From contig JALSIJ010000219.1 in NCBI GenBank assembly GCA_026981655.1, positions 1 to 47,379 of the forward strand: DNA of 47,379 nt, given 5' to 3'. Under the pieces are notes generated by a model. The model did no database searches, was not told the origin of the DNA, and saw nothing but the letters and a program-made list of their open reading frames with translations. The DNA is from Rhizobiaceae bacterium (GTDB lineage Bacteria > Pseudomonadota > Alphaproteobacteria > Rhizobiales > Rhizobiaceae). Made by a program: the position numbers and the translations under genes. Shown here piece after piece: positions 42,001 to 47,379 of the stretch (positions are counted from its first letter, which is position 1; each line of letters begins with the position of its first letter).

Positions 42001-42087
42001 GCGGTCGTGGCGGAACTGGTAGACGCGCAGCGTTGAGGTCGCTGTGGGGTAAAACCCGTGGAAGTTCGAGTCTTCTCGACCGCACCA
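42001..42087 (+). tRNA. tRNA-Leu (anticodon GAG)
   Basis: An 87-base class II tRNA: acceptor GCGGTCG pairs with CGACCGC, the anticodon stem CAGCG/CGCTG holds loop TTGAGGT with anticodon GAG, a long variable arm (TGGGGTAAAACCCGT) follows, then the T-arm with GTTCGAGTC, and CCA is encoded. A weak GGCA/TGCC hairpin with GTTTT (42153-42169) downstream may end transcription. The rest of the stretch up to 42284 holds nothing I can name. Confidence 0.97.
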
Positions 42088-42284: not shown

Positions 42285-44030
42285 TTATATTCCGATGAAT
42301 TTATCCAACTGCTCAAATACTAATTCTGGTTTAGCATATAATACGAGCTGGCCCGCATCTTCGACCATAACCAGCTTTGTTCTGTCTTTAAATCGCTCAG
42401 CAAATATCTCTATACTAGTGGCCGCAATGACGATGTCGTGTCTGCCGTGAACGAGCATAATTGGGCAGGTTGATTGCTGCACAACGTCACTCCAGTTACG
42501 TACTGCATGGTAGGAATCAATTTCAAATGCTTTGTAACCCTGGGATATTGCAAAGTGGTAGCCATCGCAAACCACTCTGAAAATTTCTTTATTTAACAGT
42601 GCTCGTTGGTCATGAGGGGCATTTTCGTAAAGCGCATTCATAAAATCTTCCTCGCCACCAAAATCGAGCTGTCTAATTCCTGCCCGTAAAATAAACGGTA
42701 ATAATTTTGGTGTGTATTTTGCTGTGTAGGCGACAAGTCGTTGCCGGGTAGACATTGACGAGAGTTGAATGTTGTTGATGATTGGTACGCCGCCGGATAC
42801 GTTTAAAATGCCTGTTATTCTCGAACCAAGATGAGCGGCCGTTGAAAATGTATAAATTGAACCGGCCATATGGCCCAATAAAACAGCATTTTTAAGCGAA
42901 AGCTCATTCATCACCGCTTCAACGTCGCTAGCAAACCGCATGGTTGCGGTTTCAATTGGCCCCGGCGCGCTGGATGAGGAACCAAAGCTTGGACGCTCTG
43001 GTGCAATAAGCCTGATATTGTACTTTTCAAGCTGCCCTTCAATTTGCCGGGTAATGCTGCAACCATCCAGCATGCCGTGAATGAAAATAACTGGTCGCCC
43101 ATTCGAGGGTCCAAATTCACGAACCGGAATGGTGCGGTTTGAGGGGCGAGCTATCAGGTTTATTGAAGATGATGGCTGCTTTAATTCGTTATCCGGTTCA
43201 TTCTCAATTACTCGGATTAGAGACAGTAATAATCGCACAAGATCTGTCTGGCTTTTTGTGCCGGTTTTGGAAAGAAGTGACTTAACTTGCGTTCTGACCG
43301 TTGCTGCGGATTTATTGCGTTGCTCGGCAATTTCAGCGATGGTTAGTCCGTCCATCAGCTCTTTGGCGATTTCAATCTCTGCTTCTGATATTGAGAAAGC
43401 GGATATAAGCAGATCATTTAGCGGGTTTTTCCAACGTGGCATTGCATGTTGCAAATGAATGAGTGATTCACCCGATCGGTCAATAATCGGCTTCGCAATC
43501 AGATAATACGACTTATCTTCTTTTGTGGAATGCAATTGAATTACATGGCTGTTTTTAGCCGGTGGTGCCTCGGTTGAGGCCCACCCTATCATATCCCTTA
43601 GAACATTTTCGCCATTTGCCCGAAATGAAAGTTCAAAGGCTGATTTCAGTTTACCCAGTTGGAAACAGCGGTCTGCGGCGCCATTAAACCAAACACATTT
43701 AGCATTTTTATCAATAAGAATGGCCGGTTCGCCATTGGTGTTTTGCTCGCTTTCAAACAAGGTTGCTGGCGAATTACGTCCCATTTCCTGTAATAGGCGA
43801 AAGCCAATTTCAAAATGCTTTTCAATTGATGGCGAGATAAGTTTCGGCTGGTCTTCTGTTTGGTGTTGTTTGAATTCTTCAAGATTTTTCAAGGCGCTTG
43901 AGACATGAACATCCCAAAGTTCCATGAAATCATCATAGCCCTGAGGCTCTAAGGCTATGGAGTAGATGTGCTCAATAAGTGCTGCTTCGCTCTCCAGTTG
44001 ATCAGGATTGTTTGATTTTTTAGCGGTCAA
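42285..44030 (-). CDS. LuxR-type regulator fused to a catalytically degenerate alpha/beta-hydrolase domain
   Basis: The 581-residue protein has an N-terminal PAS-like region (about 100-200), a LuxR-type helix-turn-helix (about 211-270; FSISEAEIEIAKELMDG, then SAATVRTQVKSLLSKTG), and a C-terminal alpha/beta-hydrolase domain (about 298-581). The hydrolase fold is clear: VIFIHGMLDG oxyanion loop, RLIAPERPSFGSS, and IMLVHGRHDIV with the acid D532. The nucleophile elbow reads G-H-M388-A-G instead of G-H-S-x-G, and the usual histidine is Q561 (DAGQLVLY). Two triad residues are therefore missing, which suggests a ligand-binding sensor rather than an enzyme. There are no membrane segments. An operator-like dyad lies 74-108 bases upstream of the start. 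Confidence 0.88.
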   Translation of the reverse strand: MTAKKSNNPDQLESEAALIEHIYSIALEPQGYDDFMELWDVHVSSALKNLEEFKQHQTEDQPKLISPSIEKHFEIGFRLLQEMGRNSPATLFESEQNTNGEPAILIDKNAKCVWFNGAADRCFQLGKLKSAFELSFRANGENVLRDMIGWASTEAPPAKNSHVIQLHSTKEDKSYYLIAKPIIDRSGESLIHLQHAMPRWKNPLNDLLISAFSISEAEIEIAKELMDGLTIAEIAEQRNKSAATVRTQVKSLLSKTGTKSQTDLVRLLLSLIRVIENEPDNELKQPSSSINLIARPSNRTIPVREFGPSNGRPVIFIHGMLDGCSITRQIEGQLEKYNIRLIAPERPSFGSSSSAPGPIETATMRFASDVEAVMNELSLKNAVLLGHMAGSIYTFSTAAHLGSRITGILNVSGGVPIINNIQLSSMSTRQRLVAYTAKYTPKLLPFILRAGIRQLDFGGEEDFMNALYENAPHDQRALLNKEIFRVVCDGYHFAISQGYKAFEIDSYHAVRNWSDVVQQSTCPIMLVHGRHDIVIAATSIEIFAERFKDRTKLVMVEDAGQLVLYAKPELVFEQLDKFIGI

Positions 44031-44171: not shown

Positions 44172-44333
44172 GCTTATGCTCCGCCCCAGTGGAGGCCGGG
44201 GCGTAGCTCAAGTTACACGTTGACCCCGGACTTGATCCGGGGGAAGCGCAAAACTTGAGCCATTAGAAAAGCCCCGATTAGCCGTGAGCGAAAACAACCT
44301 TGAGTGATTCCACCTAAAGATGAATCGCTCAAG
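44172..44333. repeat. Cluster of nested palindromes in a 602-base gene-free region
   Basis: The stretch 44031-44632 has no supported gene. It contains CGCCCC/GGGGCG (44182-44187 and 44198-44203); an outer pair GCTCAAGTT/AACTTGAGC (44206-44214 and 44252-44260) enclosing CCCCGGA/TCCGGGG (44224-44230 and 44236-44242); and a 12-bp pair with one mismatch (CTTGAGTGATTC at 44299-44310, GAATCGCTCAAG at 44322-44333). The last resembles rhizobial intergenic repeats with an AAGATG loop. CTTGAG or its complement occurs four times. These may be decayed repeat elements, or insulation between the divergent genes. Confidence 0.6.
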
Positions 44334-44632: not shown

Positions 44633-47379
44633 GTGGCTGTTTCGAAAGACTTGATGTTGGCATTACTTGCGTTGGATTCCTACAACCAAGGATACCACCG
44701 TGGCATGATACATGGCAGCACGGAAATTGGTACGGCTACTCTTTCGAATGACAAAGGTGACGCTGAAGCACAAGCGGACGGGTTTTATGCTGCGTCTTAT
44801 GATACAGATTTTGGAACAGTAATATCATATCGCGGTACAGATGATTTTTCCTCACTTACAGGGGGGAATGACATAATCAAAGGCTGGATTACTGGAGGCG
44901 GGATTTGGCAGACTGACCAAGTGCGCATGGCTGCAGAGTTTTTCCAGCAAGTAACGGGGACTACCGATAGCGACCCGCGCACTGGTAATGCTATTCTTAC
45001 TGGCCATTCACTTGGTGGTGGCCTGGCAGGTTTTGTTGCAAGTCTTTATGGCAGTGAAGCAAAAATTTACGACAATATGCCATTTGAACTGGCCTCTGAT
45101 AATGCTCAGGCATCGGCAGATTCCAGCAGCTTTTTTGGTGTTTTATTTAGGCAATATGCACAGGATATATTTTATAATGGTGCTGAACCTTGGGCAATTG
45201 ATAGAAGCGATATAACTGGCCGCTATGTTACCGGCGAAGCATTGCAGATACCACGGCTTGGACAGGCGACACCGCTGGATGCATTGGATTCAAATGGAGG
45301 GCTAAGAGACCCTGTTGCTCTCCATTCAATGGCGTTACTGGCCGCGTTGCAGTTTGCTGAGGATGAAAATCATACAGACTGGTACTCAATTGGGTCTTCG
45401 CTGTGGGATGCTGCCTTTAACGATGTTGTTGGAAATGCAGCCGGGTTTTCTGATGCAAATTCCCTTGAGACCTATGGTCCTTCAGCCAAGATGTTATCGG
45501 CTATTGCTTATTCCGCCATCGACGAAGGGTCAATGGTTTTTGGTAATACCGGTATCCGTGCAATGTTCGATGATGCCGATGAGTTAGGGCGCATCGTCAG
45601 TAGTGGTAATCTGCCGGCGAATCTATCAAAAGCTAGAAACGGTATTGCCGAGGCCATTGTCCAGTTTGCCGGTCAGATGGCATTTCAGGAAGTGGATTTC
45701 AACAACCACACTGATCTCAAGCCGGAAGAGGGCATATTGTTCTTTTCCCTGGATGGAGTGATTATTGAAGCAGGTGACGGCGTTGACGAAACTGCAACGG
45801 CTGATCTGTTAGCAATCGATCTGTCGAAAACCCTTTGGAACCTGCATGATGGTACCGGTACCGGCGGTGGAGATGTTGAAGTTACAGGATTGCAAACAGT
45901 TCTTGATGATCTGTTTTCAGAAGCTCTTTCTGGCGGTGAAAGTGAACTTCTTGCGGCCATGATAAAACTTGGTTTTGGCGATGGGACTATAAGCGCTATC
46001 GGTCGTGCAGATTTTGCTTTAGAAAACGATTTGCAAGAAGTCCGTTTGGCGGATCGTGGCTCTAGTGGAGTAGGGGTATCTGATGATCAGGCAGGATTAT
46101 ATGTTTCTGCTGATGGCCCGCAACAAATATACGGTAATCGGGACAATAATATTATTTTCGGGGCTAATAGCGATGACTGGCTGACCGGCGGTCTTGGTCG
46201 CGATATTCTTATTGGCCGCTTGGGCGATGACATTTTTGTCGACGCAATTTCCGAAGAAATTCCCTCAAATGCAACTGTTGGAACCGATCCGCATGATGAT
46301 ATTTATATCGGTGGCGTAGAGTTTGATGACTGGATTACAAAATTTGTTGCCTGGTTGGTAGTTGGCACCCAAACCGACGAACTTCAATATACGGTACTAG
46401 CGGATATTGATAATCCAGGCAGCCTGAGGGAAAAAGGTCTGGAAGTTCTTGACATTGAACTCACTAATATTGGCGATGCAGACGCGGTCAAGCTGGTAAT
46501 TAAAGACAAGAATACTGGCCGTATCAGTACGGATCATACGATTCACATCGATCGTGTGCGATTGTCTGAACGTCAGGATGATCTGGTTGTCACCGATCAA
46601 ATGCTTCAGGCTCCGATTATGATCGACATGGGAGAGTTTGCACCCGGTTCGGTGAGTAAGGCTGATTGGGATGTGTTGGACTTTTCCAATATCTCTGGCG
46701 GTATTACTATGGTCAATAGTGAACTGCGGGCAAATTCGCCTGATAATGGACCAATTGAGCAGAGTTTAGCAGGTAAGTTTAAAACCATCGTTGACATTAT
46801 TCCTTATGCACTAGGTATTGTTCCAGAGGTTCTGAGTTTAGGGGCCTTGCAAAGCAATGATCCATTGCGGGTGATTGGAGCAGAAAAGATTACCGGTACA
46901 GGTAGTGATGATGTGTTGTGGTTTGGTGAAATCGATTTTATCCAATCCTTGCTTGGTGGCTGGTCGGCTGACGAGTATGTTCCGCGCTATGGAGAAATAG
47001 ATGGCGGTGATGGCAATGATTATATTGTTCATACATACAGTGAATATATTTTTTCTGGTAGCACTTTGTCTCAGGAACAAGGGGGAAGTGATTTAGACCC
47101 GACTACCATCGGCGGCGATTTCTTCATGACTCTTAAAGGTGGTAAGGGTGATGATCGTTTGATCACCCTAGGTGGAACTGGCGCAGTTACCGCCGGTGGC
47201 GAGGGAACTGACCTGATTTTCAACACGTCCTATAAAGGCAAACTTTATGGCGGTGATGTCGATGGTCGGGGCGATGGTGAGACCGATATTTTCTGGTTTT
47301 GGCCAGGTACCTTCATCATGGATGCCGAAAAAGATGATGTTTTAGAAGTTTTTGGTATCCCATTATCAGGTGGCACCAA
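44633..47379 (+). CDS. Lipase-like RTX exoprotein, N-terminal part (partial)
   Basis: The frame is open for 915 codons and runs off the right edge, so the C-terminus is unseen. GTG 44633 is the start: GGGAG at 44622-44626 lies 6 bases upstream, and an in-frame TGA lies two codons before. Residues about 1-200 resemble a class 3 lipase-like domain with ISYRGTDDFS and the elbow TGHSLGGGLAGF (S126). Aspartate/glycine-rich calcium-binding repeats appear at about 501-536 (GGLGRDILIGRLGDDIF), 791-797 (GGDGNDY) and 836-842 (GGKGDDR). The visible part has no cysteine and no signal peptide, as expected for type I secretion through a C-terminal signal. No ABC exporter genes are in the window. Substrate and activity are unknown. 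Confidence 0.85.
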   Translation, partial: MAVSKDLMLALLALDSYNQGYHRGMIHGSTEIGTATLSNDKGDAEAQADGFYAASYDTDFGTVISYRGTDDFSSLTGGNDIIKGWITGGGIWQTDQVRMAAEFFQQVTGTTDSDPRTGNAILTGHSLGGGLAGFVASLYGSEAKIYDNMPFELASDNAQASADSSSFFGVLFRQYAQDIFYNGAEPWAIDRSDITGRYVTGEALQIPRLGQATPLDALDSNGGLRDPVALHSMALLAALQFAEDENHTDWYSIGSSLWDAAFNDVVGNAAGFSDANSLETYGPSAKMLSAIAYSAIDEGSMVFGNTGIRAMFDDADELGRIVSSGNLPANLSKARNGIAEAIVQFAGQMAFQEVDFNNHTDLKPEEGILFFSLDGVIIEAGDGVDETATADLLAIDLSKTLWNLHDGTGTGGGDVEVTGLQTVLDDLFSEALSGGESELLAAMIKLGFGDGTISAIGRADFALENDLQEVRLADRGSSGVGVSDDQAGLYVSADGPQQIYGNRDNNIIFGANSDDWLTGGLGRDILIGRLGDDIFVDAISEEIPSNATVGTDPHDDIYIGGVEFDDWITKFVAWLVVGTQTDELQYTVLADIDNPGSLREKGLEVLDIELTNIGDADAVKLVIKDKNTGRISTDHTIHIDRVRLSERQDDLVVTDQMLQAPIMIDMGEFAPGSVSKADWDVLDFSNISGGITMVNSELRANSPDNGPIEQSLAGKFKTIVDIIPYALGIVPEVLSLGALQSNDPLRVIGAEKITGTGSDDVLWFGEIDFIQSLLGGWSADEYVPRYGEIDGGDGNDYIVHTYSEYIFSGSTLSQEQGGSDLDPTTIGGDFFMTLKGGKGDDRLITLGGTGAVTAGGEGTDLIFNTSYKGKLYGGDVDGRGDGETDIFWFWPGTFIMDAEKDDVLEVFGIPLSGGT

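Follow-up and report, generated by a model that had tools for sequence, protein, structure and literature searches.

The regulator locus

The window, i.e. the whole stretch of 47,379 nucleotides that was analysed (Rhizobiaceae bacterium, assembly GCA_026981655.1, contig JALSIJ010000219.1), carries on its reverse strand (positions 42285-44030) an uninterrupted open reading frame of 581 amino acids with a TTG start, encoding a LuxR-type regulator with a C-terminal pseudo-hydrolase domain. An earlier reading, made from the letters of the DNA only (the sequence-only reading), had placed this frame exactly and had correctly assigned the residues M388, D532 and Q561, the codons of which were located in the sequence. 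The following domains are encoded in order, all on the reverse strand: N-terminal helices (residues 9-83, positions 43782-44006, from the AlphaFold2 model), a PAS fold (residues 84-204, positions 43419-43781), a LuxR/GerE helix-turn-helix (HTH; residues 205-277, positions 43200-43418, with modelled helices between 202 and 277) and a complete alpha/beta-hydrolase fold that lacks the triad (residues 289-581, positions 42288-43166).

Eleven Pfam matches were obtained for the protein at E≤1. GerE scored 30.7 bits (cut-off 23.5, residues 214-267), which assigns the HTH to the LuxR/GerE family, and Abhydrolase_1 scored 46.5 bits (cut-off 25.8, residues 313-565); the PAS match was weak (15.1 bits, below the cut-off of 22.6). 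A full-length AlphaFold2 model was built from 59 sequences (the window protein and its named relatives) and reached a mean pLDDT of 90.5 and a pTM of 0.84. The structure prediction that the sequence-only reading had proposed as a check gave a full hydrolase fold: residues 289-581 formed the eight-stranded fold of the superfamily, and the best solved match of this domain was 9wlv (Z 31.4, 2.4 Å over 284 residues, 23% identity). In the model, M388 (codon ATG, 42867-42869, reverse strand; elbow G-H-M388-A-G) lies between strand 382-387 and helix 390-404, at the strand/helix elbow that is the canonical place of the nucleophile. The retained acid D532 (GAC, 42435-42437, reverse strand; motif H-G-R-H-D532) follows strand 524-529 and Q561 (CAG, 42348-42350, reverse strand; motif D-A-G-Q561), at the position of the catalytic His, follows strand 551-556; both places are canonical. 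The nucleophile-acid-His triad of active enzymes is absent, and M388, D532 and Q561 stand in its place.

When residues 84-204 were modelled alone (pLDDT 85.9), they folded as a PAS domain and matched PAS, LOV and PYP domains or proteins that are known to contain one, with a best Z of 9.6 over 105-107 residues (PAS domains of TyrR and TraJ). The PAS-like N-terminus read earlier from the sequence is thereby borne out at the level of the fold. With a PAS fold and a full hydrolase fold both present, the two-input switch proposed in that reading is fairly described as a regulator with two possible inputs.

The divergent neighbour (44633-47377, forward strand; 915 amino acids seen, running off the contig end) encodes an RTX-repeat exoprotein. 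Its PF00353 match passed the cut-off when the whole genome was searched (28.7 bits) and fell just short of it with hmmscan (22.9 bits vs 23), and its N-terminal stretch gave a weak Lipase_3 (class-3 lipase) match (E 0.007, below cut-off). RTX matches were found in three open frames of this genome, this one included. Downstream of the regulator gene lie a tRNA-Leu (42001-42087) and a gene of the lipoyl ligase A/B family. The intergenic region shared by the two divergent genes holds a 35-bp near-palindrome (44299-44333), a candidate operator or dispersed repeat. With at most three mismatches it recurs at five other sites of the genome, and its reversed control at no site, so it could equally well be a dispersed repeat as a specific operator. 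An inverted repeat with 7-bp arms at 44224-44242 (CCCCGGACTTGATCCGGGG) resembles a dispersed extragenic repeat, which we take to be REP-like.

Triad residues, phylogeny and selection

Close homologues were collected by scanning genome_contigs with the patterns F[VIL]HGMLDG and D[SA]x[HE][VA][VT]R[DN]W[ST], which avoid the three triad positions and favour close relatives; a scan of genome_contigs with the single protein gave no match. The pattern scan returned 66 loci, mostly in records titled Rhodobacteraceae or its genera, Rhizobiaceae, Hyphomicrobiales or Parvibaculum. The 66 homologous proteins comprised 45 M-D-Q and 6 L-D-Q (nucleophile, acid and His positions), and none was S-D-H. With the window protein included, the 67 rows were distributed as follows: 46 M-D-Q, 6 L-D-Q, 9 R-D-A (7 titled Leisingera and 2 Rhodobacteraceae), one G-D-Q, one R-D-D, one Q-D-H (a tandem copy, at which the alignment is uncertain) and 3 incomplete or broken rows. 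Some relatives (L173, L178) look broken. Gln occupied the His position in 53/67 rows. In the Leisingera-like proteins L179-L188, Arg takes the place of the nucleophile and, in most of them, Ala that of the His; this group also has recurring gene neighbours of its own. Side-by-side fusion copies with differing nucleophile residues were seen in three genomes (G312:C42:219944-223335, G112:C44:21927-25378 and G223:C258:14-3534).

A wider alignment comprised 90 proteins, of which 84 contain the HTH and six are standalone hydrolases. It omitted L044, the fusion-like G608:C55, G608:C56, G632:C1, G036:C1 and G048:C231, weaker fusion-like matches of the relatives search and 18/24 standalone hydrolase matches of the order search. 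L044 (1501-3246) has an in-frame stop between its HTH and hydrolase part and may be two separate genes. Ser-Asp-His was read in 3/84 fusions (L014, L096, L111) and Asp-Asp-His in two (L095, L109); the His position was unscorable in three, in which the match ends early, and the remaining 76 were without at least one triad member. Of the 90 proteins, 53 have Gln in place of the His. The six standalone relatives (L051, L053, L055, L057, L058, L060) are all Ser-Asp-His, unlike the window protein, and their open frames of 319-359 amino acids leave no room for a PAS domain and an HTH. The loss of the triad is not a matter of chance or of a single copy, and it is wider than the sequence-only reading had stated.

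Maximum-likelihood phylogeny of the HTH and hydrolase domain (90 rows) placed the window protein within a 13-member clade (support 100/98). The Met/Gln pattern, for which conservation in a clade had been suggested as a check, is kept there: Met occupies the nucleophile position in 10 of the 13 members (Leu in two and Gln in L104, a tandem copy beside L036), and the acid and Gln are present in 12/12 members with a complete C-terminus. Outside this clade the nucleophile position is highly variable (Ser, Ala, Leu, Phe, Gly, Gln, Arg, Asp and others).

The triad was also read in matches of the phylum-wide search (L199-L212). Among them, fusions from beyond the class carry Ser-Asp-His in L210 and L211, Cys-Asp-His in L206, Ala-Asp-His in L212 and Ser-Asp-Asn in L209. 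In a 60-row tree a clade of 10 rows (100/99) united these five with L096 and four standalone hydrolases, L014 and L111 shared a clade with L011 and L021, and L095 and L109 formed a third clade. The fusions with intact triads and the standalone relatives thus occupy other, more distant branches than the M-D-Q clade. The long-branch rows L182 (R-D-A), L098 and L208 (both D-S-H) fell inside the otherwise separate M-D-Q clade of the 60-row tree; L098 stood elsewhere in the 90-row tree, and the position of all three is unsure. At least four changes between intact and broken triads were required in the first tree and five in the 60-row tree. Since the trees are unrooted, we infer, and do not read from them, that the fusions started with a working enzyme and then lost its activity. 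The fusions L206 (1501-2952; Cys-Asp-His), L095 and L109 (Asp-Asp-His) may use other chemistries and could be active.

Selection was assessed with Nei-Gojobori dN/dS, using only the 18 pairs with dS of 0.05-0.45. The hydrolase-domain ratio was 0.07-0.17 in these close pairs, which were made up of 10 Leisingera-like R-D-A pairs, 6 pairs among four Parvibaculum-like L-D-Q proteins, and 2 M-D-Q pairs (0.11 and 0.17). The median of 413 pairs (0.56 for the hydrolase domain, 0.59 for the HTH and 0.76 for the N-terminal part) was discarded because dS was saturated and the ratio inflated. Median identity to the window protein was 22% for the N-terminal part (residues 17-200), 42% for the HTH and 44% for the hydrolase domain.

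Within the 52 M-D-Q and L-D-Q sequences, a set chosen by its triad positions so that those three positions are not counted as evidence, the invariant residues were H318, M320, R346, P416, D474, G498, F502, D505, W513, H528 and others. Some of the strongest conservation fell in the H-G-M-L-D-G loop, at the elbow and in G-Q-L. No Ser, Cys, Lys or Glu of the hydrolase domain was kept in at least 90% of these sequences (the highest was S514, at 87%), and the search for an alternative conserved Ser, Cys or Lys nucleophile found none in this set. Takeover of catalysis by another Ser and His, an objection that the sequence-only reading had raised against itself, has no conserved candidate in the 52 sequences. 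Taken at the level of sequence comparison, the data support a loss of the triad that has been maintained in the clade under purifying selection.

Distribution and gene neighbourhoods

The window's own genome holds a single full-length copy; its one further match is confined to residues 309-410. Of the 41 genomes in the relatives search, 29 gave some match at E≤0.001, many of them to the HTH or the hydrolase part only, and eight genomes besides the window's own reached E 5e-30 or better. Searches of the order, family and class were made with a 10-row alignment: 44/397 genomes of the order matched at E≤1e-30 (including 24 matches over the hydrolase part only), and at E≤1e-45 the family gave 38/297 genomes and the class 13/385. 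These counts describe a patchy distribution. Phylum-wide, 25/398 genomes matched at E≤1e-40.

The commonest Pfam families in 98 immediate neighbours (within 1 kb, at named loci) were Autotransporter (6), PATR (5) and IalB (4), followed by RTX, TPS and Exo_endo_phos (3 each). Among 144/300 other genes of the same loci, RTX occurred twice, and Autotransporter and TPS were not among the 25 families listed (at most 2 each). Genes labelled RTX, TPS or autotransporter accounted for 12/101 nearest, 4/90 second and 4/207 further genes (Fisher one-sided p 0.0005). This enrichment is modest and counts as a lead, not a proof, because the labels (our own motif and cluster labels) were picked after seeing the data, the longest open frames were taken as genes and four Parvibaculum-like loci supplied 5 of the 12 nearest-gene positives. 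Such a gene was present in the fetched stretch at 17 of 53 loci and absent at 36. No gene family adjoined most homologues, and the largest neighbour cluster covered nine loci, all Leisingera-like.

Interpretation of the hydrolase domain

Because the same triad replacements are kept in dozens of related regulators, the old enzyme domain is probably now a sensor or a docking part. On balance, we favour a one-component regulator in which the hydrolase domain became a non-catalytic sensor, most likely through its predicted ligand pocket. The LuxR-type HTH lies between the PAS domain and the C-terminal domain, which probably descends from an active alpha/beta-hydrolase. By sequence, the pocket of this domain has lost its nucleophile Ser to Met and its base His to Gln, and has kept the acid and a set of invariant residues. 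The pocket would bind a small molecule without turnover, and binding, together with a PAS input, would alter the dimer or free the HTH. Less certainly, the targets may include the adjacent secreted RTX/adhesin-type gene. The sequence-only reading of a hydrolase-fold receptor stands as regards the full fold, the lost nucleophile and base, the kept clade and the PAS fold; from these we infer the receptor part.

The hydrolase domain could instead be a non-catalytic structural or docking part, for the dimer or for a partner protein, with the PAS domain as the only chemical input; these data accommodate such a role as well. The variable nucleophile residue across the family agrees with this explanation, and the invariant D474, D505 and W513 could form an interface; the variability outside the clade would also be expected of a domain retained for its surface, which tempers the pocket-based reading. 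However, the strong conservation of the H-G-M-L-D-G loop, elbow and G-Q-L speaks for the pocket and not for the outside, and we hold the docking role to be possible but rather unlikely. It is clearly improbable that the domain is still catalytic through other residues, so that the regulator would sense its own turnover: the acid D532 is kept, and other branches contain D-D-H (L095, L109), C-D-H (L206) and S-D-H (L014, L096, L111, L210, L211) fusions that may be active, but nucleophile and base are both absent here and the 52 sequences offer no replacement kept in 90% of them.

A decaying gene or an assembly artefact might be suspected, since the window is a single contig of a draft assembly with 273 contigs and some relatives look broken. 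We give this hardly any credence, as the frame is open across 581 amino acids, the dN/dS of the 18 close homologue pairs is low and identical residues occur in records titled Sulfitobacter, Phaeobacter and Pararhodobacter. An isolated decayed copy among intact close relatives, the other objection named by the sequence-only reading, was excluded: all intact triads were seen in distant members, and the conserved clade and the dN/dS values contradict it.

The favoured sensor reading has partial counterparts among known systems. Canonical alpha/beta-hydrolases (9wlv and the six standalone relatives) share the fold and a recognisable sequence with the window domain. Likeness to the plant hormone receptor GID1 is claimed at the level of the fold only, and the comparison is an analogy. 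To our knowledge, GID1 has no HTH and EL222 has no hydrolase domain. EL222 (3p7n, a light-activated transcription factor according to its title), which was listed as a match of the PAS part, places a PAS-type fold before a LuxR-type HTH, as here; the window protein adds a hydrolase-fold domain after the HTH. GID1 belongs to the alpha/beta-hydrolase family, is enzymatically inactive and binds its hormone stably, according to the relevant passage of PMC5913616. MocR/GabR regulators of Bacillus combine a GntR-type HTH with a PLP aminotransferase fold and are cofactor-based, whereas the Pfam domains of the window protein are GerE and Abhydrolase, and there is no family relation. The aminotransferase-fold domain of GabR responds to GABA, and an aminotransferase-like activity is not essential, as stated in an excerpt of PMC6522883; GabR may serve as a bacterial precedent in working principle, without claimed kinship. 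Among the open-access papers listed, judged by title or opening of the abstract, none described a LuxR-hydrolase fusion as a receptor, a scope that makes this weak evidence; the main text of PMC3466318 and of PMC5882156 contains no word that begins with 'hydrolase'.

A broader proposal is tentative, and we doubt it at present: the PAS-LuxR proteins with a Met/Asp/Gln ligand site might form a widespread and hitherto undescribed receptor family of Alphaproteobacteria that responds to a diffusible compound by switching surface adhesins as well as RTX and autotransporter exoproteins, a bacterial counterpart of the hydrolase-derived plant hormone receptors. Conversion of an enzyme to a receptor is already known from plant hormones and from GabR. 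The fused-regulator family spans Ser-Asp-His, half-lost triads and a kept Met-Asp-Gln in many genera, and with this full range of states in one family the transition can be tested. Should the pocket bind a ligand, this would point to a new signal read by many Alphaproteobacteria, which might use it to regulate surface or secreted proteins.
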